Positions 12,273 through 21,667 of a stretch of DNA of 64,000 nt are shown here, piece after piece. The notes below the pieces were generated by a model. That model saw only the letters and a list, made by a program, of their open reading frames with translations, did no database searches and was not told the DNA's origin. The translations under genes and the position numbers were made by a program. Position 1 is the first letter of the stretch. The number at the start of each line of letters is the position of its first letter. Source of the DNA: an uncultured Alistipes sp. (GTDB lineage Bacteria > Bacteroidota > Bacteroidia > Bacteroidales > Rikenellaceae); NCBI GenBank assembly GCA_944321955.1, contig CALUNG010000003.1, positions 93,206-157,205 of the forward strand, in the 5' to 3' direction.

Positions 12273-13514
12273 TTACTGATAAAGCGGATCGCACAATATC
12301 GATGCAAAGGAGCGATGCGAACGGTAGATTCGTTCTACGGCACGCAGTTCACTGTCCAGAAGAGTCATGGATACGTTTCCGGACGAAACGGGAACATCGA
12401 TATCGACCGGCTCGTTCGGAGAGACGGGGATTCTGGTGACATTTCCGTCGCACTCCACGGCCACATACCCGCAGACGGCAACCCCGAGATGCGCTGATAT
12501 GTTCGCACGTCCGAGCACTATATTGGAAGTGGCAATCCAGCTGCGTCCGGCCGAAATCACCGACGTGTTGGGATGCACGCGACAGGACCACAGCGAATAC
12601 TTGTATTCGATCGAATCGCCCGGACGTACGCGTTGCAACGGAGACTGCAGCTCCATCTGCATGTAACCGGGATTTATCTTCATGTTGTCGGGGCATACCG
12701 ACAAAGATCCGCGAGTATAGATCGAACCGCGACCCTGTGCCCAAACCTGCAACGGTGCGTCATGGAAATAGGGTTTGTCCTCTTCCCTCTCGAAATTGGC
12801 CACAAGACATGCTCCCTTGTCGCAATTCATGTAACAGGCCCAGCCGCAATCGGTATCGCTGCCTATTTTACCGGCAATATACTGGTAATCGACCTCAACG
12901 ATATTGTCGCGCAAATGCCACTGAGGGGAGTTAACGATACCGTGAATTATCGTGAACCCGCTTTTGCTGCGGTCCCGACCGAAAAATATCTTGTAATGGC
13001 CACTCTCGTATGACGATGCCTCGACCTGAGCCACAGGCCAGATCGACAGATGCTTGCTGTGCTCCGAACGGTTGCGCAACCAGGCGTTTATCTCAAGTCT
13101 CGTGCTCTTCTCGAGAAGTCTGACGCTGCGTCCCACCTGCACGCCTATGTGAGGCTCGACCGACGAGGTCATCTCTATGACATCGTTCTCGGCAGATACC
13201 TTGTAACTACCACCGTCGATGACCGGATCAGGCGGTCCCGGCCACTCATCTTCACTTGACCAACCTTGAGGCGCCACCCATAGCTTTTCGCCTCCGAAAT
13301 TCTGCCAGTTGCCGTTCCATCTCGACGTTCCCTGCACGTTGGCCATGCCTTTCAGATTCTCATTCTCGAAAAGCAGGGCACATCCGCCGATTTCGATCTG
13401 AAGGATACGACCGCCCAATTCCGGCGCGACATAAACCTTGACGTAATCATTGGACATTTCGATAACCGACCTTCCGCTGTGTTTTGTTTGCCTAATCATA
13501 ATCGTGTGAATCAT
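12273..13514 (-). CDS. DUF4380-like protein of the galactose-mutarotase fold
   Basis: A 413-residue protein without a signal peptide. The N-terminal part reads VKVYVAPELGGRILQIEIGG and then NWQNFGGEKLWVAPQGW, the pattern of DUF4380-type members of the galactose mutarotase-like superfamily. The middle is a large beta sandwich with a WPVAQVE strand. It has a longer C-terminal beta extension than plain epimerases. The ATG overlaps the stop of the upstream aldose epimerase by four bases (ATGA), so the two are co-translated and probably act on the same sugar. The exact reaction is unknown. A later in-frame ATG (13499) is possible. Confidence 0.6.
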   Translation of the reverse strand: MIHTIMIRQTKHSGRSVIEMSNDYVKVYVAPELGGRILQIEIGGCALLFENENLKGMANVQGTSRWNGNWQNFGGEKLWVAPQGWSSEDEWPGPPDPVIDGGSYKVSAENDVIEMTSSVEPHIGVQVGRSVRLLEKSTRLEINAWLRNRSEHSKHLSIWPVAQVEASSYESGHYKIFFGRDRSKSGFTIIHGIVNSPQWHLRDNIVEVDYQYIAGKIGSDTDCGWACYMNCDKGACLVANFEREEDKPYFHDAPLQVWAQGRGSIYTRGSLSVCPDNMKINPGYMQMELQSPLQRVRPGDSIEYKYSLWSCRVHPNTSVISAGRSWIATSNIVLGRANISAHLGVAVCGYVAVECDGNVTRIPVSPNEPVDIDVPVSSGNVSMTLLDSELRAVERIYRSHRSFASILCDPLYQ

Positions 13515-14644
13515 TCATTATCCTGCAATACCCCGAAACGATACTCGGTTACCGACCTGAACTCATCTCCGGGACGTAACAGACATTGAGGCAGATCCGG
13601 CCTGTGCGGCGTATCCGGAAAGTGTTGTGTTTCAAGGGCCACGGCGGCATAACGTTCGAAAGGTTTACCGTCTTTACCCGTGATAGAGCCGTCAAATGCG
13701 CTGCACGGATATACAAGCAGTCCCGGTTCGGTAGTCACTACATCGAGACAACGTCCGCTGACGTTGTCGACAACCGTACATGCCGGGCGCAACGTCCTGC
13801 CGTCGTACCCGTCCACAAACCAGTTCAACGACCCTCGCGAAAATACGGAGAGATCTTCATCGTCGACATGGTCTTCGATTGGTCGCATCTCCCTGAAATC
13901 ATAGGGGGTACCGTCGACGCCAAATACACCGTCAGACAGAAAAAAGGCATCGGTCGCAACCCTGCGGTCCGCATATATCCGCATGGCATGCTCCAAGACA
14001 TTTGCAGCATCGTATCCGCGAAGGTTGAAGTAGACGTGATTCGACAGGTTTACAACGGTTGTCGCATCGGCGACTGCCTCATACTCGATACGCAGCACGT
14101 TGTCATTACTCCAGCGATATGTAACCGAACACCGCAGATTGCCGGCATATCCCTCTTCTCCATCAGGGGAAAGACGCGTAAAAAGCAACGAAACGCCATT
14201 TTCACCGACGAAGGGCTCCGCACGCCACATACGACGGTCGAAACCTTCGAATCCGCCATGCAGATGTATTGCACGACCATTACGAATTTCATTGGCAGAC
14301 AATATCAGCTCTTTGTCACCCGCCATGCAGCGACCGTCCGCTATACGGTTTGCATACCGGCCAAGAGTTGCTCCGGAATATGTAGTCCGGTCAGCCTCAT
14401 ACGCCTCCGCGGAATCGAATCCAAGAACGACATCGCCCAGAACACCGTCCCGATCCGGCACCGTTATCGAAACGATGCGGGCACCGAAATCCGTAAGCGA
14501 CACACTCGCTCCGGTATCGTTGACAAGACGATATAGCGTAACCGGAGTCCCGTCCGAGAGACTGCCGAAAGATTCCGATTCGATGCGCTGATGTGAACAT
14601 GCAGCAAACAAAAACACAAAAGATATGAGCAAGAGTTTTTTCAT
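13511..14644 (-). CDS. galM: Aldose 1-epimerase, lipoprotein form
   Basis: A 377-residue galactose mutarotase that interconverts the alpha and beta anomers of aldoses. The ATG at 14644 was chosen because it exposes a lipoprotein signal (MKKLLLISFVFLFAAC); a longer frame reaches 14704. The family motifs are intact: GRYANRI, the substrate-binding IHLHGG, the catalytic-His segment NLSNHVYFNLRG, and the catalytic-Glu segment ALETQHFPDTP. The lipid anchor puts it in the periplasm, where it would prepare imported sugars for uptake. It is the first gene of a two-gene unit and has a promoter about 110 bp upstream. Confidence 0.88.
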   Translation of the reverse strand: MKKLLLISFVFLFAACSHQRIESESFGSLSDGTPVTLYRLVNDTGASVSLTDFGARIVSITVPDRDGVLGDVVLGFDSAEAYEADRTTYSGATLGRYANRIADGRCMAGDKELILSANEIRNGRAIHLHGGFEGFDRRMWRAEPFVGENGVSLLFTRLSPDGEEGYAGNLRCSVTYRWSNDNVLRIEYEAVADATTVVNLSNHVYFNLRGYDAANVLEHAMRIYADRRVATDAFFLSDGVFGVDGTPYDFREMRPIEDHVDDEDLSVFSRGSLNWFVDGYDGRTLRPACTVVDNVSGRCLDVVTTEPGLLVYPCSAFDGSITGKDGKPFERYAAVALETQHFPDTPHRPDLPQCLLRPGDEFRSVTEYRFGVLQDNE

Positions 14645-14754
14645 ATGCAAAGCCACATAATGTTCATACACATGCATTCCGTACATCACCGGCGGCAGAC
14701 ACACAAGATATCACGAATTGACACACGGTAGCCAGTAGCAAAGTTGGATTTTCA

Positions 14755-14851: not shown

Positions 14852-14879
14852 AAAAAAGGGCAGAGGTTTCCCTCCGCCC
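14852..14879 (-). terminator. Intrinsic terminator of the glycerol-phosphate operon
   Basis: On the minus strand GGGCGGAGG, a GAAA loop and CCTCTGCCC form a nine-pair stem with one G-U pair, followed by six U. It lies about 24 bp past the transporter stop codon. Confidence 0.85.
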
Positions 14880-14902
14880 CTGATTCTTCGGACGAAACAG
14901 CG

Positions 14903-16372
14903 TCACAACCTGACTTCCGGCTTTTCCATTTGAGTATGGTCGTAGCCGTCGGCCGGAGCTTTCCACATAAGCATGAGTATGCCCATGCAGATGAACGCCA
15001 CGACGATTATTCCTATGTATGCCGAGTCCCAGCCGTAGTGGTCGGCCAGAAAGCCCAAACCGGCTCCCGACACCAGCGTACTTGCATATCCGAACATGCC
15101 CTTGAAGCCATTGGCCGTCGCTGCGGCACGTTTCGTCGCCTGATTGGCCGCCGCGATGCCGATAAGCGCCTGCGGGCCGTAGATGCAGAATCCGGCCGCA
15201 CACAGAACCACGAAGTATACCCATACGGGCGTCGATGCGGGCAGCTGCCAGAACAGCGTCATGAAGATAACCGTACCGAGCATGCAGAAGACGCAGGTAC
15301 GGTGTGCACGGCCCTTGAGCCACTTGTCGGTAACCCATCCGGCGAAGAGCATGCCGAGGATACCGGCGATCTCGAACATTGCCACGAGCCATCCGGCCGA
15401 TGAGAGACTTACTCCCTTCGACTGGCTGAGCAGCGACGGTCCCCAGTCGAGGATCGAGAAACGGACGATGTAGACGAAAAAGTTTGCGAACGACAGGATC
15501 CATATCAGCGGATTGCCGAAAACATGCTTGCGTATGAAGGCGCGGGCTTCGGCCGGATTTTCGTCATGCGGAGCATCTTTCGACTCGGTTCCTTCGAGTT
15601 CGGGAAGGCCCACCGACTTGGGCGTATCGCGGATCGTCATGAAGAGTGCTATCGCTCCGACAAAGGCTATCGCCGCCGGCACCCAGAAGCAGAGTTTCCA
15701 TGCTCCGTAATGCGATGCCGACTGCATGACGCGGGCCATGCCTTCGGTATCGTCGGGCGAGACGTGGAGATTGGCTGCAATCGACGCGACCACACCGGCA
15801 TCGCCGCTCATGTCCGTACCGAAGTGCGACATCAGATATCCGCACAGGATCACCACGAGACCGGCGCCGATCGAGTGCGACGTATTCCATATCGACATTT
15901 TGGTTGCCAGCTGCTGAGGCGGCACCCAGTGAGTCAGCAGGCGTGCGCACGGTGGAAATCCGGCACCCTGGAACGCTCCGTTGATGACCCACATAAGGCC
16001 CATGAATACGGTCAGGACATTGATGTATGCACCGCCCTCGGTCGAGCCTGTGAGCATGTAGGCCACATTTTCGCCGAAGCCGAAGGCCACGTTTGCCATA
16101 ACGCACAGCATCAACGCGATGGACATGTACCAGCGGGCGTTCTTGCGGTCGGCAAACATTCCGTTCACAAGCTGCGACAAACCGTAGACTATACCCTGCG
16201 CCGTAAGGAATATTCCGAGGCTTGTCTTCGACAGGCCGAGATCGGCCTCCATGCCTGGCATGGCAAGCGAGAAGTTCTTGCGCACGAAATAGAAGAGTGC
16301 ATAGCCGAACATCGTACCGATGATGGTACGGGTCTGCCAGCTCTTGAAGAGTTTTTTCTGTTGTTCAGTCAT
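14903..16372 (-). CDS. OPA-family organophosphate transporter (GlpT/UhpC-like MFS)
   Basis: A 489-residue inner-membrane protein with about 12 hydrophobic segments. The start fits the organophosphate:phosphate antiporter family: FGYALFYFVRKNFSLAMPGM, then ADLGLSKTSLGIFLTAQGIVYG and an FMGLMWVINGAFQGAGFPPC segment. Family members exchange glycerol-3-phosphate, hexose phosphates or phosphoglycerate for phosphate. The two upstream genes (12 bp and further) are a glycerol-1-phosphate dehydrogenase and a glycerophosphodiesterase, so the likely cargo is a glycerol phosphate. The exact isomer cannot be told from sequence. It is the last gene of the operon and is followed by a strong terminator. Confidence 0.85.
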   Translation of the reverse strand: MTEQQKKLFKSWQTRTIIGTMFGYALFYFVRKNFSLAMPGMEADLGLSKTSLGIFLTAQGIVYGLSQLVNGMFADRKNARWYMSIALMLCVMANVAFGFGENVAYMLTGSTEGGAYINVLTVFMGLMWVINGAFQGAGFPPCARLLTHWVPPQQLATKMSIWNTSHSIGAGLVVILCGYLMSHFGTDMSGDAGVVASIAANLHVSPDDTEGMARVMQSASHYGAWKLCFWVPAAIAFVGAIALFMTIRDTPKSVGLPELEGTESKDAPHDENPAEARAFIRKHVFGNPLIWILSFANFFVYIVRFSILDWGPSLLSQSKGVSLSSAGWLVAMFEIAGILGMLFAGWVTDKWLKGRAHRTCVFCMLGTVIFMTLFWQLPASTPVWVYFVVLCAAGFCIYGPQALIGIAAANQATKRAAATANGFKGMFGYASTLVSGAGLGFLADHYGWDSAYIGIIVVAFICMGILMLMWKAPADGYDHTQMEKPEVRL

Positions 16373-16384
16373 GGTTCATCGGTT

Positions 16385-17725
16385 TTATCGTATCTCCCAG
16401 ATGCCGCCCTTGCCGAAGAGACGCTCCTCGACGGCATCCATCAGACCGCAGCGGAAGAGCACGTCGATATTGGTGAAACGGCTGCGCATGTAGGGCATGT
16501 ATCCGAACGTCCTGCGGAAGCGTTCGCGCGTCACACCGATCATCTCCGGTTCGTACGGAGCTCCTACAGCCTTGAGATTTTCGCGCACCTGCCCGAAGGG
16601 TATGATCTGACGGCGGATACGCTCCTTCAGCTCGGGCCAGCAGGTCTTGAGCGTCTCGAGCTGGTGGCGCAGACCGTCACGGTCGACATACTTGCCTTTG
16701 GTCTCGGTCAGGGCACGTGCAATGTGTCCGGGTTTGCCGTCGAATATGCGATAGATATCCTGCACGGTCTCCTCCCACGACTTCCACGAATCGACGCAAC
16801 GGTCGATGTCGAGATGTTCGATATCCGTCTCCAGAAGAAACTCGAGCGATGCCGTCGAGGCCAACGTCCCGATACCTACCTTGAAGCCGTGCGAGACGTG
16901 TTTGCCTTCATAGCAGAGATTCTCCATGTCCCAGCAGTGGCTGAACTGATGTTCGGTACCCGAAGCCGGGCGGCTCGACTGCAGGGCCTGCATCGCAAAA
17001 CCGCTCATGATCAAACCTTCGGCCAGCTTTTCGGTCATGGCAACGTCGCCTTCGAATACGGCTTTCGGAGCGCTCAGGGCATCGCGCAGACCGTCCTGGA
17101 CAAGCCCGAACGAGAAGCTGTCGAGACGCTCGACGCCGAGAGCGTCTGCTATGATCCAGTCGGCTCCGGCCGGGATCTTGGCTATCAGGTCGGCATATCC
17201 CGATGCGGCCAGCTCCTTGGGTGCGGCCGCTGCAATCACCGGATCGAAGAGCATGCCGTACGGCGCCGGACAGTCGAACGTCTGCTTGTTGCCCTCGAAG
17301 GTTATGGAGGCACCGTAGGCCGTATATCCGTCCATCGAGGCGGCCGTACCTACTACCATGTACTTGCGGCCAAGATGCGCCGAAACCAGCTTCGTAAGGT
17401 CATTTATCACGCCCGACCCAACGGCTATGGCTATGGCATCGACCTGACGGAGGTAGGCCTCGAGCTGCTCGATGTACGACCACTCGGCATAGAGCTGCGG
17501 GTCATCGAAAACAAAGGGCTTGACGGTCTCCACGCCCGCCTCGGCCAAATGACGTGCGACCTCTTCGCCCGCCACGCGGAAAGTGGTCGTATCGGCCACG
17601 ATGACGGCCTTGCTTCCGGGAAAAAGTTTGCGGAACATCTCCGGAGTCCGCTTCAGGGCGCCGACACCTATAATAAGATCGCGGGTGTCGGTAGTACGCT
17701 GCAGTGCTGCTTCTATCTTGTTCAT
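16385..17725 (-). CDS. sn-Glycerol-1-phosphate dehydrogenase (AraM/EgsA family)
   Basis: A 446-residue, cytoplasmic, iron-alcohol-dehydrogenase-type protein. NAD(P)-binding motifs are clear: IAVGSGVINDLTK and VVGTAASMDGYTA. The metal-site region contains SGTEHQFSHCWDM and a later KHVSHGFKVG. These identify the family that interconverts dihydroxyacetone phosphate and sn-glycerol-1-phosphate, the enantiomer used in archaeal lipids and made by Bacillus AraM. A long C-terminal part (about 340-446) goes beyond the core. It sits seven bases after the glycerophosphodiesterase gene and twelve before the transporter. The context suggests breakdown of glycerol-1-phosphate to DHAP, though synthesis is possible. 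Confidence 0.85.
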   Translation of the reverse strand: MNKIEAALQRTTDTRDLIIGVGALKRTPEMFRKLFPGSKAVIVADTTTFRVAGEEVARHLAEAGVETVKPFVFDDPQLYAEWSYIEQLEAYLRQVDAIAIAVGSGVINDLTKLVSAHLGRKYMVVGTAASMDGYTAYGASITFEGNKQTFDCPAPYGMLFDPVIAAAAPKELAASGYADLIAKIPAGADWIIADALGVERLDSFSFGLVQDGLRDALSAPKAVFEGDVAMTEKLAEGLIMSGFAMQALQSSRPASGTEHQFSHCWDMENLCYEGKHVSHGFKVGIGTLASTASLEFLLETDIEHLDIDRCVDSWKSWEETVQDIYRIFDGKPGHIARALTETKGKYVDRDGLRHQLETLKTCWPELKERIRRQIIPFGQVRENLKAVGAPYEPEMIGVTRERFRRTFGYMPYMRSRFTNIDVLFRCGLMDAVEERLFGKGGIWEIR

Positions 17726-17732
17726 ATCGTTG

Positions 17733-18632
17733 TTATAGTTCCATGTTCTCGTAAATGCCGATAAAATCCAACGGATAGTCCGTCTCGATGATATCGGGTT
17801 TCAGCGCCACCTCACGGGCATAACGCGCCCTGCGCAGGCGATCGTTCGGGATCTTGTCCTGCAACGGCGCCGTAGAGGTCATGCAGCGCACACCCACGCC
17901 ATGCAGGGCTTCACGCAAGGGCTCGAGACCTTCGTTCATCGTGGGGCTCACGACATAGGCCACCTTCACATGCGACCACGGAACCCCGGCCGCAGCATAG
18001 GCCTCGAACTGTTCGAGATTCTTTACCCATATCGAGAACCGTGCTTCGGGATCGAGCGCAAGACACTCCAGCGCCGCTTCGGGCGTATGCACCGTATATA
18101 TGACGTTGCAGGCCCCGCACCGCTGCACAAGCGGTACAAGCACATCACGCGAGACATCCTTGGTGTCGAAATTGAGCACGGTCCTACCCTTGCTCCACAA
18201 AATGACATCCTCTACCTTGGGGATACGGTATCGGGTTATGTTGCCATGACGGTCCACCAGAAAGAGCCGGTTCAGTTCATCCCATGTATGGTCCCTCACA
18301 CGACCCTCACCCGTCGTCGTACGTTCGAGCGTACTGTCATGCATGAGCACTATGACGCTGTCGCGCGTCATGCGGGGATCGATCTCGAAGAACGACGGCA
18401 TGTGCCGCAACGTATGTTCGAACGATTCGATGCAATTCTCGGGATAGCCTTCGGCCATGCCTCCGCGATGTCCGCTGATGATCATGCCGCAACCGGGCTC
18501 GTAACGGAAATAGGCATCCACCTCTTCAAGCGTATTGCACGGAATGGTATTGAGTTCACGGTTGCAGCCTGCGGCAACCGTCAGAACCGCCGCCGCAGCC
18601 AGCAACGACAAAACGGGTCCATAGTATTTCAT
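17733..18632 (-). CDS. Glycerophosphodiester phosphodiesterase lipoprotein
   Basis: A 299-residue GDPD-family TIM barrel that hydrolyses glycerophosphodiesters to glycerol phosphate plus an alcohol. Catalytic motifs are present: GHRGG and GYPENCIESF near the N-terminus, FEIDPRMTRDSVIVLMHD with the metal and acid residues, and ERTTTGEGRV. The N-terminus is a lipoprotein signal (AAAAVLTVAAGC, Cys23), so it acts outside the inner membrane. It is first in the operon with the glycerol-1-phosphate dehydrogenase and OPA transporter and has a well-formed promoter upstream. Likely substrates are deacylated phospholipids or teichoic-acid fragments. This is an inference. Confidence 0.88.
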   Translation of the reverse strand: MKYYGPVLSLLAAAAVLTVAAGCNRELNTIPCNTLEEVDAYFRYEPGCGMIISGHRGGMAEGYPENCIESFEHTLRHMPSFFEIDPRMTRDSVIVLMHDSTLERTTTGEGRVRDHTWDELNRLFLVDRHGNITRYRIPKVEDVILWSKGRTVLNFDTKDVSRDVLVPLVQRCGACNVIYTVHTPEAALECLALDPEARFSIWVKNLEQFEAYAAAGVPWSHVKVAYVVSPTMNEGLEPLREALHGVGVRCMTSTAPLQDKIPNDRLRRARYAREVALKPDIIETDYPLDFIGIYENMEL

Positions 18633-18666
18633 GGCAGATCAGGTTGGTTTGGTTTCTTTTCCTTTG

Positions 18667-18698
18667 CAAATTTAACCAATTAGTTTCGAACATGCAAT
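18667..18698 (-). promoter_or_regulatory. Promoter of the GDPD operon
   Basis: The minus strand has ATTG (18695-18698), a 20-bp spacer, then TAAATTTG (18667-18674), an exact TAnnTTTG. It starts about 35 bp ahead of the GDPD start codon. Confidence 0.75.
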
Positions 18699-18725
18699 CA
18701 TTCGAAACACTTTTACCCGTAAATT

Positions 18726-18757
18726 TTTGTTAAAATAAAAGATTATCGTTACTTTTA
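18726..18757 (+). promoter_or_regulatory. Promoter of the HAD phosphatase gene
   Basis: The plus strand has TTTG (18726-18729), a 20-bp spacer and TACTTTTA (18750-18757), one mismatch from TAnnTTTG. It lies back to back with the GDPD promoter, so one regulator could control both directions. Confidence 0.6.
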
Positions 18758-18839
18758 CCATACGTACAAACAACAAGACAGGCCTCAGGCCGGCAAAATC
18801 GAGTCTCAAGGGTCAAAACTAACACGCAAACAGAAAATT

Positions 18840-19709
18840 ATGGTCAAATTCCACGAATATCGTTCGATATATTCCGACGATGAACTCATGCAGCGTCTGC
18901 GTGACATCCGACACCTGGCACTCGACATGGACGGCACGGTCTACATGGGCATGTCGCTCTTTCCGTTCACCGCTCCGTTTCTCGCGTCGATGCGTTCGCT
19001 CGGAATAAGACATTCGTTCCTCACGAACAACCCGTCGAAGTGCATTGCCGACTACCTGCACAAACTCGACGTGCTGGGCATACATGCCGAGGCCGACGAG
19101 ATATACACGACCGTCCTCGCCACGATAGACTACATACGCGAACACTATCCGCAGGCACGCAGACTCTTCATGCTGGGGACGCCGAGCATGATCTCGGAGT
19201 TCGAAAAGGCCGGATTCGAATCCACGGCCGACGATCCGGCCGACGTACCCGACATCGTGGTAGTGGCATTCGACATGACGCTTGAATACAAACGCTTGTG
19301 CCGCGCCGCATGGTGGGTTTCGCGCGGGCTGCCATACATTGCGACCAATCCCGACCGCGTCTGCCCCACCGACCAGCAGGTTATACTTGTAGACTGCGGC
19401 TCGATATGCGCATGCCTCGAGCACGCTACGGGACGCAAACCCGACATCACCCTCGGCAAACCCGATCCCAACATGCTTTCGGGCATCGTCAAACGATACG
19501 GCTTGCAGGCGGATCAGATAGCCATGGTCGGCGACCGCATCTACACCGACATCGAGATGGCGCACAATGCCGGAGCCTTCGGCGTGCTGGTACTGTCGGG
19601 TGAAACGACGCTCGACGTTGCCGACAAGGCCCCGAGACAACCCGACCTTATCGTCGACGACATCGGCGTACTCGGCCGTCTGATCGAACGGGCGCACGGC
19701 GAGAAATAG
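18840..19709 (+). CDS. HAD-IIA family sugar/glycerol-phosphate phosphatase
   Basis: A 289-residue cytoplasmic phosphatase of the NagD/AraL group (HAD subclass IIA). Motif I is LALDMDGTVYMG (nucleophile D29, acid D31), motif II lies in SFLTNNPSK, and motif III/IV is GKPDPNML and MVGDRIYTDIEMA. A large cap domain (about 95-205) lies between motifs II and III, as in this subclass. It is divergent from the GDPD-G1P dehydrogenase-transporter operon and shares its intergenic region. In Bacillus subtilis an HAD-IIA gene (araL) is also next to a glycerol-1-phosphate dehydrogenase gene (araM). It may dephosphorylate glycerol-1-phosphate or act as a detoxifying phosphatase. Confidence 0.82.
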   Translation: MVKFHEYRSIYSDDELMQRLRDIRHLALDMDGTVYMGMSLFPFTAPFLASMRSLGIRHSFLTNNPSKCIADYLHKLDVLGIHAEADEIYTTVLATIDYIREHYPQARRLFMLGTPSMISEFEKAGFESTADDPADVPDIVVVAFDMTLEYKRLCRAAWWVSRGLPYIATNPDRVCPTDQQVILVDCGSICACLEHATGRKPDITLGKPDPNMLSGIVKRYGLQADQIAMVGDRIYTDIEMAHNAGAFGVLVLSGETTLDVADKAPRQPDLIVDDIGVLGRLIERAHGEK

Positions 19710-19730
19710 ATCGTAAAACACAACAAATAA

Positions 19731-19763
19731 AACGAGGTATCGGCCCAAAGTCGATACCTCGTT
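19731..19763. terminator. Bidirectional intrinsic terminator
   Basis: AACGAGGTATCG (19731-19742) and CGATACCTCGTT (19752-19763) form a perfect 12-pair stem with a nine-base loop between two convergent genes. The U-run is better on the minus strand. Confidence 0.8.
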
Positions 19764-20932: not shown

Positions 20933-21622
20933 CTATTTCGCCGAACCGGCCGACCGGGTTTTGATCAGTATGACACCGTTGGCTCCGCGGAATCCGTACA
21001 TGTTGGATCCCTTGAGCACCTCGACGGATTCGACTTCGTTGATGTTTATCGAGTTGATATTGGTTTCGTGACCGTCGCACAGTATCAACGCCCCGTTGCC
21101 GGAGTTTATCGACCCGATACCGCGTATGCAGATCTCGCCGTTGACAAGCATGAGCCCCGGCACGCGCGACAGCAAAGCATCGCGCAGGTTCGATGTTCCC
21201 AGACGGCGCAGCTCCTCGCCCGATATGCCCGACGAACTGTCGATTTTCTCGCGACGCTTGACATACATGAAACCGAGGTCGGCCAACTCGTCCGACTCCG
21301 ATGCCGAATATCCCGTATCGCCCGTCCAGAGTATGCGTATGCTCCGGCGGCCCGCAACGGGTATCTCCACCTCGTCGCGCCGGAAGGTAACGACCAGCAC
21401 GTCGCTGTCGGCTATGTTTGTCAGTCCGAAACGGCCCTTCCTGTCGGCCGTCGTGACCTTGTCCTTGCCCTTTACCTTGACGCGGGCACGCACCCCGGCA
21501 CCGTCGGTATCGATTATCAGTCCGTTGAACGGGACATCTTCCGACACCGGCACGTCGTTCTGAGCCGCGGCCGACACCGCCAGCAACGACAATACGGCAA
21601 AAAGTATCACACGTATCTTCAT
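20933..21622 (-). CDS. Stand-alone TonB receptor plug-domain protein
   Basis: A 229-residue exported protein (signal MKIRVILFAVLSLLAVSAAAQ). Residues about 35-110 form a carboxypeptidase-regulatory-like domain (GLIIDTDGAGVRARVKVKG). Residues about 130-225 are a SusC-like plug (LRDALLSRVPGLMLVNGE, ICIRGIGSINSG, VESVEVLKGSNMYGFRGANG). It then stops with no beta-barrel. The promoter at 21636-21667 fits the ATG at 21622 and excludes the longer frame to 21649. Without a barrel it cannot form a channel, so it may be a TonB-interacting periplasmic or surface factor. Such barrel-less plugs are seen in Bacteroidetes, but their role is not settled. Confidence 0.82.
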   Translation of the reverse strand: MKIRVILFAVLSLLAVSAAAQNDVPVSEDVPFNGLIIDTDGAGVRARVKVKGKDKVTTADRKGRFGLTNIADSDVLVVTFRRDEVEIPVAGRRSIRILWTGDTGYSASESDELADLGFMYVKRREKIDSSSGISGEELRRLGTSNLRDALLSRVPGLMLVNGEICIRGIGSINSGNGALILCDGHETNINSININEVESVEVLKGSNMYGFRGANGVILIKTRSAGSAK

Positions 21623-21635
21623 GGCACCTTTTTTA

Positions 21636-21667
21636 CAAAAATAAGCCATTTTTCAGACATTTGCAAC
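21636..21667 (-). promoter_or_regulatory. Promoter of the plug-domain unit, near-leaderless
   Basis: The minus strand has GTTG (21664-21667), 20 bp, then TATTTTTG (21636-21643). The start codon begins only 13 bp after the -7 element, so the 5' leader is likely under 10 bases, though an AAGG stretch lies just before the ATG. Confidence 0.75.

Follow-up and report, generated by a model that had tools for sequence, protein, structure and literature searches.

Closest described systems

In E. coli, glpTQ encodes the antiporter GlpT together with GlpQ, a periplasmic glycerophosphodiester phosphodiesterase (GDPD). We analyzed a comparable locus in a 64,000-nucleotide stretch of DNA (the window) from an uncultured Alistipes sp., in which genes for a GDPD-family lipoprotein, an AraM-type dehydrogenase and an antiporter of the organophosphate:phosphate antiporter (OPA) family lie in one operon, divergent from a gene for a HAD-IIA phosphatase. 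As in glpTQ, a probably exported GDPD and an OPA antiporter share an operon, and among solved structures the best match to the transporter is GlpT. The locus differs in that the sn-glycerol-3-phosphate (G3P) dehydrogenases are replaced by the AraM-type enzyme and that residues K80 and W138 of GlpT are changed. The excerpt of PMC7086022 describes GlpQ as strictly specific for sn-glycerol-3-phosphoryl groups, cutting only G3P ends, and lipoteichoic acid (LTA) as a polymer of sn-glycerol-1-phosphate (G1P). The latter statement, now found in print, was the stereochemical premise of an earlier reading of the bare sequence (the original prediction), which saw a G1P-scavenging locus here.

In the B. 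subtilis gene order araABDLMNPQ-abfA, given in the excerpt of PMC3207120, araD, araL and araM are adjacent. AraM is the closest solved structure to the window dehydrogenase, and a HAD-IIA phosphatase of the AraL kind, and in relatives AraD, adjoin the dehydrogenase. The Bacillus araL-araM parallel was therefore closer than first claimed, as homologues also neighbor AraD; it supports pentose chemistry as much as G1P. In contrast to the Bacillus operon, L-arabinose isomerase (AraA) is absent in 58 of 60 genomes and in the window's genome, and an exported phosphoesterase and OPA import are found instead of arabinoside transport. The archaeal G1P dehydrogenases EgsA (5fb3, 4rgq) have the same fold and metal-ligand positions as predicted for the window enzyme, but are shorter. 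The window enzyme has a larger C-terminal part common to AraM, and no PcrB/GGGP synthase was found in its genome. The EgsA/AraM phylogeny is treated in PMC5059525, and the excerpt of PMC7852524 reports FCB bacteria with archaeal-type lipid genes yet without araM. Note that "AraM" denotes a mutarotase in PMC4666351 and PMC5507952, and probably in PMC3750489.

We propose, with a probability of roughly 0.58, that the operon serves to scavenge a phosphorylated polyol bound as a phosphodiester, with glycerol phosphate as the likeliest substrate in the window. The exported GDPD lipoprotein would free the polyol phosphate outside the cell, the GlpT-like antiporter would take it up in exchange for phosphate, and the dehydrogenase would oxidize the secondary alcohol to a ketose phosphate. 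The likeliest substrate in the window would be G1P, as from LTA or phosphatidylglycerol head groups, yielding dihydroxyacetone phosphate (DHAP). The HAD-IIA phosphatase probably hydrolyzes imported esters for phosphate, or prevents their build-up. A scavenging role of the operon is likely, and G1P is likely to be a substrate, though not an exclusive one. The system is a new form of the known glpTQ-like import, combined with an AraM-type dehydrogenase of putative polyol-phosphate specificity.

The operon and its products

On the minus strand the genes follow in the order GDPD, dehydrogenase, OPA transporter, with intergenic gaps of 7 and 12 bases, and form one tight operon. The HAD-IIA gene diverges from it across 207 bases. 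Together with the domain matches, this gene content and spacing confirmed the layout of the original prediction.

The GDPD matched PF03009 with 66.5 bits (cutoff 23.6), and its closest solved relative was 3mz2 (phmmer, 4.8e-64 over residues 26-290). GHRGG, FEIDPR and MHD are present in the translation, and we take HR...ExD...H to be the GDPD motif. The N-terminus (...VLTVAAGC) was judged by eye to be that of a lipoprotein; we infer both the export of the protein and the enantiomer that it would release. The transporter matched PF07690 with 195.2 bits (cutoff 33.4), and the earlier view of it as a GlpT-like importer agrees with its best solved relative, GlpT (1pw4; phmmer, E 1.6e-69). The pocket residues of GlpT are largely retained: the phosphate-site residues R45 and R269, and also H165, occur in 62 of 62 aligned transporters, whereas K80 is Q and W138 is F in the window transporter. 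The HAD-IIA protein scored 125.1 bits against TIGR01460 (cutoff 100.15), with 1vjr as the best solved relative (1.1e-54).

The dehydrogenase matched PF13685 with 123.6 bits (cutoff 28). Its closest solved structure by sequence was 9h4x (phmmer, 119.6 bits, 1.4e-33), with weaker matches to the EgsA structures (5fb3, 65.6 bits; 4rgq, 64.3 bits). Foldseek with a structure model of mean pLDDT 94.6 likewise placed 9h4x, B. subtilis AraM, at rank 1 (E 8.3e-22, TM 0.75/0.84). These matches point to a predicted Fe-ADH/DHQS-type fold, with AraM as the nearest solved relative. Residues D179, H259 and H279 are conserved in at least 97% of 117 aligned rows and align to D/H/H of 5fb3; we take them, from the positions in archaeal G1P dehydrogenase, to be Asp/His/His metal ligands.

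Neighborhoods of the dehydrogenase

Strong matches to the dehydrogenase (49-54% identity) were present in 5 other genomes among 295 of the order, and among 296 genomes of the phylum only the window's own genome had one. By PF13685 score, 60 of 200 genomes of the family contained a close relative, 18 of the 60 having two. Scanning genome contigs yielded 73 loci, mostly from metagenome-assembled genomes (gut, rumen) named Alistipes, Rikenellaceae or Bacteroidales, and one from a Maribellus isolate. The 120 dehydrogenase copies of at least 420 residues were reduced to 109 non-redundant copies at 98.5% identity, and neighbors within 4.5 kb were scored with hidden Markov models built from the same loci. 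Note that the neighbor numbers refer to sequences rather than to independent events, and that many loci are cut by contig ends.

An OPA transporter was found near 67 of the 109 copies, and in 64 the two genes were adjacent on one strand within 400 bases. An exported-looking phosphoesterase lay near 47 copies, in 38 with OPA as well. By family, the neighbors were AraD (25), HAD (23), MPP-type metallophosphoesterase (22), a DeoR regulator (21), a 3-epimerase (RPE, 16), purple-acid-phosphatase-like (13), GDPD32 (12), GDPD39 (5) and RpiB (1). The full set of GDPD32, dehydrogenase, OPA and HAD accompanied only 8 copies. Thus, of the expected conservation of the four-family cluster, the pairing of dehydrogenase and transporter stood and the four-gene set did not. 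At the locus of the nearest relative (L025:7751-8920; dehydrogenase 92% identical), a purple-acid-phosphatase-like gene that is absent from the window lies between HAD and GDPD. Locus L067:10001-17949 is a tandem of two dehydrogenases, the second 37% identical to that of the window; a metallophosphoesterase gene comes after each of them, and RPE and OPA precede the pair. The 16 RPE copies come from 15 loci because both of its copies were counted.

No two of HAD, AraD and the 3-epimerase occurred together within 4.5 kb of any copy. Functional replacement of HAD-IIA by AraD or RPE was considered and rejected, because 32 of 33 genomes tested, among them AraD- and RPE-type genomes, contained HAD orthologues. 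In 5 of 7 AraD-type genomes inspected, and 0 of 5 RPE-type genomes, HAD lay beside or opposite another OPA transporter at a site apart from the dehydrogenase. The HAD-IIA phosphatase is part of a separable module for import that also occurs with no dehydrogenase gene in it, and its proposed role as a specific overflow valve for G1P was not sustained. Plain phosphate scavenging from several organophosphates by GDPD, OPA and HAD, with the dehydrogenase as a loosely coupled passenger, would fit these modules (HAD with OPA, or HAD with GDPD32 and OPA with PAP17). It would also fit the exported purple-acid-phosphatase-like and metallophosphoesterase genes that stand in for GDPD. However, the adjacency of dehydrogenase and transporter is closer than expected of a passenger, and we regard this explanation as very improbable.

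Pentose-phosphate enzymes in relatives

In all 25 cases, L-ribulose-5-phosphate 4-epimerase (AraD) was encoded directly upstream of the dehydrogenase on the same strand, with gaps of -73 to 199, the negative values arising from over-long open reading frame starts. The linked AraD scored as a true 4-epimerase (NCBIfam subfamily, 366.4 bits; cutoff 257) and carries what we take to be the catalytic motifs of AraD. The linked RpiB passed its equivalog (141.8 bits; cutoff 138.65). The linked ketose-phosphate 3-epimerase passed a subfamily cutoff (167; cutoff 165) and fell short of rpe and AlsE. We rejected it as the housekeeping RPE: all 33 genomes sampled had a second match, 32-39% identical, which is likely the housekeeping enzyme. 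The 3-epimerase paralogue was present in 9 of 9 RPE-type genomes sampled (one partial), 6 of 13 AraD-type and 0 of 11 others. In three AraD-type genomes (L196, L197, L199) it lay near an exported-looking GDPD, and at L196 and L197 the neighbors further included a class-II-aldolase-like gene and a permease; this may be a second phosphodiester locus.

We searched for AraA, AraD and ribulokinase genome-wide in 60 genomes (25 AraD-type, 15 RPE-type, 20 others). AraD was found in 40 (25 of 25, 13 of 15 and 2 of 20, respectively). AraA exceeded its cutoff in two, G809 and G654 (marginal), and was not found in 24 of the 25 AraD-type genomes. Thus, AraD mostly works without the isomerase that normally supplies it. 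For AraD located elsewhere in RPE-type genomes, no consistent partner gene was found. The window's own genome had neither AraA nor AraD at E 0.001, and an arabinose operon was rejected as an explanation there. Ribulokinase was over cutoff in 15 of the 60 genomes, including the own genome (TIGR01234; G000:C18:36288-37874, locus L192), where it stands without AraA or AraD, as in most HAD-type genomes tested.

In a quick tree of 117 dehydrogenase rows (all trees were made without bootstrap), 25 AraD copies, 15 RPE copies and one copy with neither formed a derived group (SH-aLRT 94). HAD-linked dehydrogenases branched at many places, and outside these the Rubrobacter copies also adjoin HAD-IIA. 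The AraD/RPE-linked transporters and one other formed a single clade (34 rows, support 100), outside which the window transporter grouped with the GDPD/HAD-linked ones. Residue 138 was V or I in 33 of 33 AraD/RPE-linked transporters, and also in L078, L079 and L082. The AraD, 3-epimerase and RpiB neighbors indicate pentulose-5-phosphates in those lineages. In the derived lineage the dehydrogenase is linked to AraD or 3-epimerase and to transporters of another class, and its probable substrates there are pentitol 5-phosphates. The window dehydrogenase is 70-76% identical to the AraD- and RPE-type enzymes, with catalytic residues unchanged, and at 85% conservation only positions 100, 113 and 216 separated HAD-linked from AraD/RPE groups. 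A substrate switch visible in the sequence was rejected, as Y113 marks a larger clade including copies without AraD or RPE.

These findings, together with the Rubrobacter homologue beside HAD-IIA and RpiB, would also be consistent with pentitol-phosphate scavenging throughout, the window included. Ribitol teichoic acids, capsules or similar material would then supply D-ribitol-5-phosphate or L-arabitol-5-phosphate for oxidation to D- or L-ribulose-5-phosphate. Both pentitol phosphates would share with sn-G1P the configuration of the carbon to be oxidized, which adjoins the free CH2OH, and a single active site could then accept all three. However, the own genome is without AraD, and L-ribulose-5-phosphate would lead no further there. 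In addition, the window has a GDPD and the other transporter class, and pentose epimerases are linked neither in the window nor in any of the 23 HAD-linked copies. We therefore consider pentitol phosphates rather unlikely as the substrate of the window operon.

Homologues in other phyla were sought among plasmids, which gave 45 records with a dehydrogenase match; 8 regions were inspected. In two Rubrobacter plasmids, the genes around a homologue (47-48% identity) encode HAD-IIA, dihydroxyacetone kinase, RpiB and FGGY kinases. In R. leguminosarum, S. meliloti, Acidiphilium and Shinella its neighbors are HAD-IIB and a sugar-binding regulator, and the cluster also contains an FGGY kinase or xylulokinase. 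The R. etli homologue occurs with a regulator and a kinase, and that of Priestia among ara genes. The polyol loci (Rhizobium, Sinorhizobium, Acidiphilium, Rubrobacter plasmids) resemble the window locus in placing the same dehydrogenase family beside a HAD phosphatase. In contrast, those with an FGGY kinase would use a free polyol and a kinase, whereas here a ready-made phosphate ester would be imported.

Uptake or synthesis

The original prediction had set against itself the case of a dehydrogenase that serves only synthesis by feeding a PcrB-type prenyltransferase, the partner enzyme in archaeal-type ether-lipid pathways. We rejected this for the own genome, where no PcrB/GGGP synthase was found above the E-value limit (PF01884, 0 matches); PcrB was present in 7 of 14 control genomes. 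More generally, the dehydrogenase might be synthetic, reducing DHAP to supply G1P for lipids that are G1P-based or heterochiral, or to yield glycerol via the HAD phosphatase. The excerpt of PMC13400652 calls AraM the known bacterial G1P source, and PlsY is reported there to accept G1P. A group of more distant paralogues without OPA also exists (L151-L152, L154-L167), often near fmt and an LptF/G-like gene; in L151 and L152 a methylglyoxal synthase gene lies immediately 5'. Against synthesis stand the missing PcrB, the presence of GpsA for ordinary G3P, and the placement of the gene in one transcription unit with those for an exported phosphodiesterase and an importer, which fits uptake. We judge a synthetic role improbable.

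No glycerol kinase over cutoff was found in the own genome, and a phosphate-ester dehydrogenase would thus be the direct way into glycolysis. Glycerol phosphate is the likeliest substrate in the window because of this, the GDPD, the transporter class and the lack of AraD.

Several points weigh against glycerol phosphate scavenging. The absences rest on a genome rated 92% complete. The dehydrogenase reached only 150.7 bits against the NCBIfam G1P dehydrogenase equivalog NF002022 (cutoff 413). The transporter stayed below all OPA equivalogs (best TIGR00881, 330.9 bits, cutoff 407.75; GlpT equivalog TIGR00712, 302.3 bits, cutoff 632.55). Both names are therefore family assignments, not specificities. 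GlpT K80 is Q in the window transporter and R or K in most others aligned. GDPD genes are near few of the 109 copies, close homologues have pentose-phosphate enzymes as metabolic neighbors, and in other phyla FGGY kinases, RpiB or ara genes adjoin the homologues. B. subtilis AraL uses D-xylulose-5-phosphate and other substrates but did not act on G3P, and the excerpt (PMC3207120) does not list G1P among them. The scavenging originally predicted is favored by the uptake-type operon with its importer, by the OPA transporter near 67 of the 109 copies and the exported-looking phosphoesterase also present in 38 of these, by the missing PcrB and glycerol kinase, and by AraM as the best structural match, but the dehydrogenase family is not tied to glycerophosphodiesters.

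We also offer, tentatively and as a possibility only, a wider reading in which AraM-type enzymes act generally as polyol-phosphate dehydrogenases, their stereochemistry being like that for sn-G1P. Lineages of gut and rumen Bacteroidales would use them either from G1P to DHAP, or from L-arabitol-5- or D-ribitol-5-phosphate to L- or D-ribulose-5-phosphate and on to AraD or a dedicated 3-epimerase. If so, with OPA import, Gram-negative gut bacteria would feed on Gram-positive teichoic acids as carbon, and B. subtilis AraM would gain a place in its arabinose operon. The presence of AraM beside AraD and a HAD phosphatase in Bacillus, Rubrobacter and Bacteroidales would be explained, and the question of AraM's role would become a simple substrate assay. 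If glycerol phosphate scavenging holds for the window, a gut bacterium would eat the "archaeal" glycerol phosphate enantiomer. The open-licence literature searched contained no match for this route, and nothing relevant on a GDPD/AraM/OPA system, G1P catabolism, a pentitol-phosphate dehydrogenase, or G1P dehydrogenase with AraD. AraM-type genes should not all be annotated as lipid enzymes.

Candidate promoters, terminator-like hairpin and neighboring genes

The features of the locus are collected in Table 1. The divergent region contains two exact copies of TAnnTTTG, which we take to be the Bacteroidetes -7 consensus, on the minus strand (18674-18667 and 18821-18814); the window has 31 copies versus 18.0 expected. 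A near match on the plus strand, TTTG-20-TACTTTTA (18726-18757), was noted by eye. A sigma-70 scan gave 2 sites, below the chance mean of 3.8, with none in the divergent region.

Table 1. Positions of the operon, the divergent gene and associated signals in the window.
Feature	Position	Strand	Basis
GDPD-family lipoprotein (glycerophosphodiester phosphodiesterase), first gene of the operon	17733..18632	-	PF03009; phmmer to 3mz2; signal and lipobox by eye
AraM-type polyol-phosphate (glycerol-1-phosphate) dehydrogenase homologue	16385..17725	-	PF13685; 9h4x best PDB match by sequence and fold; D179/H259/H279
OPA-family organophosphate:phosphate antiporter, GlpT-like	14903..16372	-	PF07690; phmmer to 1pw4; R45, H165, R269 kept
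HAD-IIA phosphatase (NagD/AraL kind), divergent	18840..19709	+	TIGR01460; best solved relative 1vjr
Shared divergent promoter region with Bacteroidetes -7-like elements (candidate)	18633..18839	.	Motif scan and by eye
Intrinsic-terminator-like hairpin closing the operon	14856..14881	-	11 pairs, 7 G-C, T-rich tail

The hairpin (read 14881-14856) lies directly 3' of the transporter gene. Terminator-like sites in the region numbered 6 versus 5.5 expected, not above chance, and the weight of the hairpin rests on its length and position, not on the site count. The downstream aldose epimerase is therefore unlikely to be in the same operon.

Genes for this aldose 1-epimerase, with a lipoprotein-like N-terminus, and then for a DUF4380/mutarotase-like protein overlap by 4 bases at 12273-14704 (minus strand). 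The pair has its own TAnnTTTG at 14762-14755, past the terminator of the operon. On the other side, at 20933-21649 (minus strand), a 238-residue protein consists of a TonB-receptor plug domain only (PF07715), with similarity to SusC/RagA.

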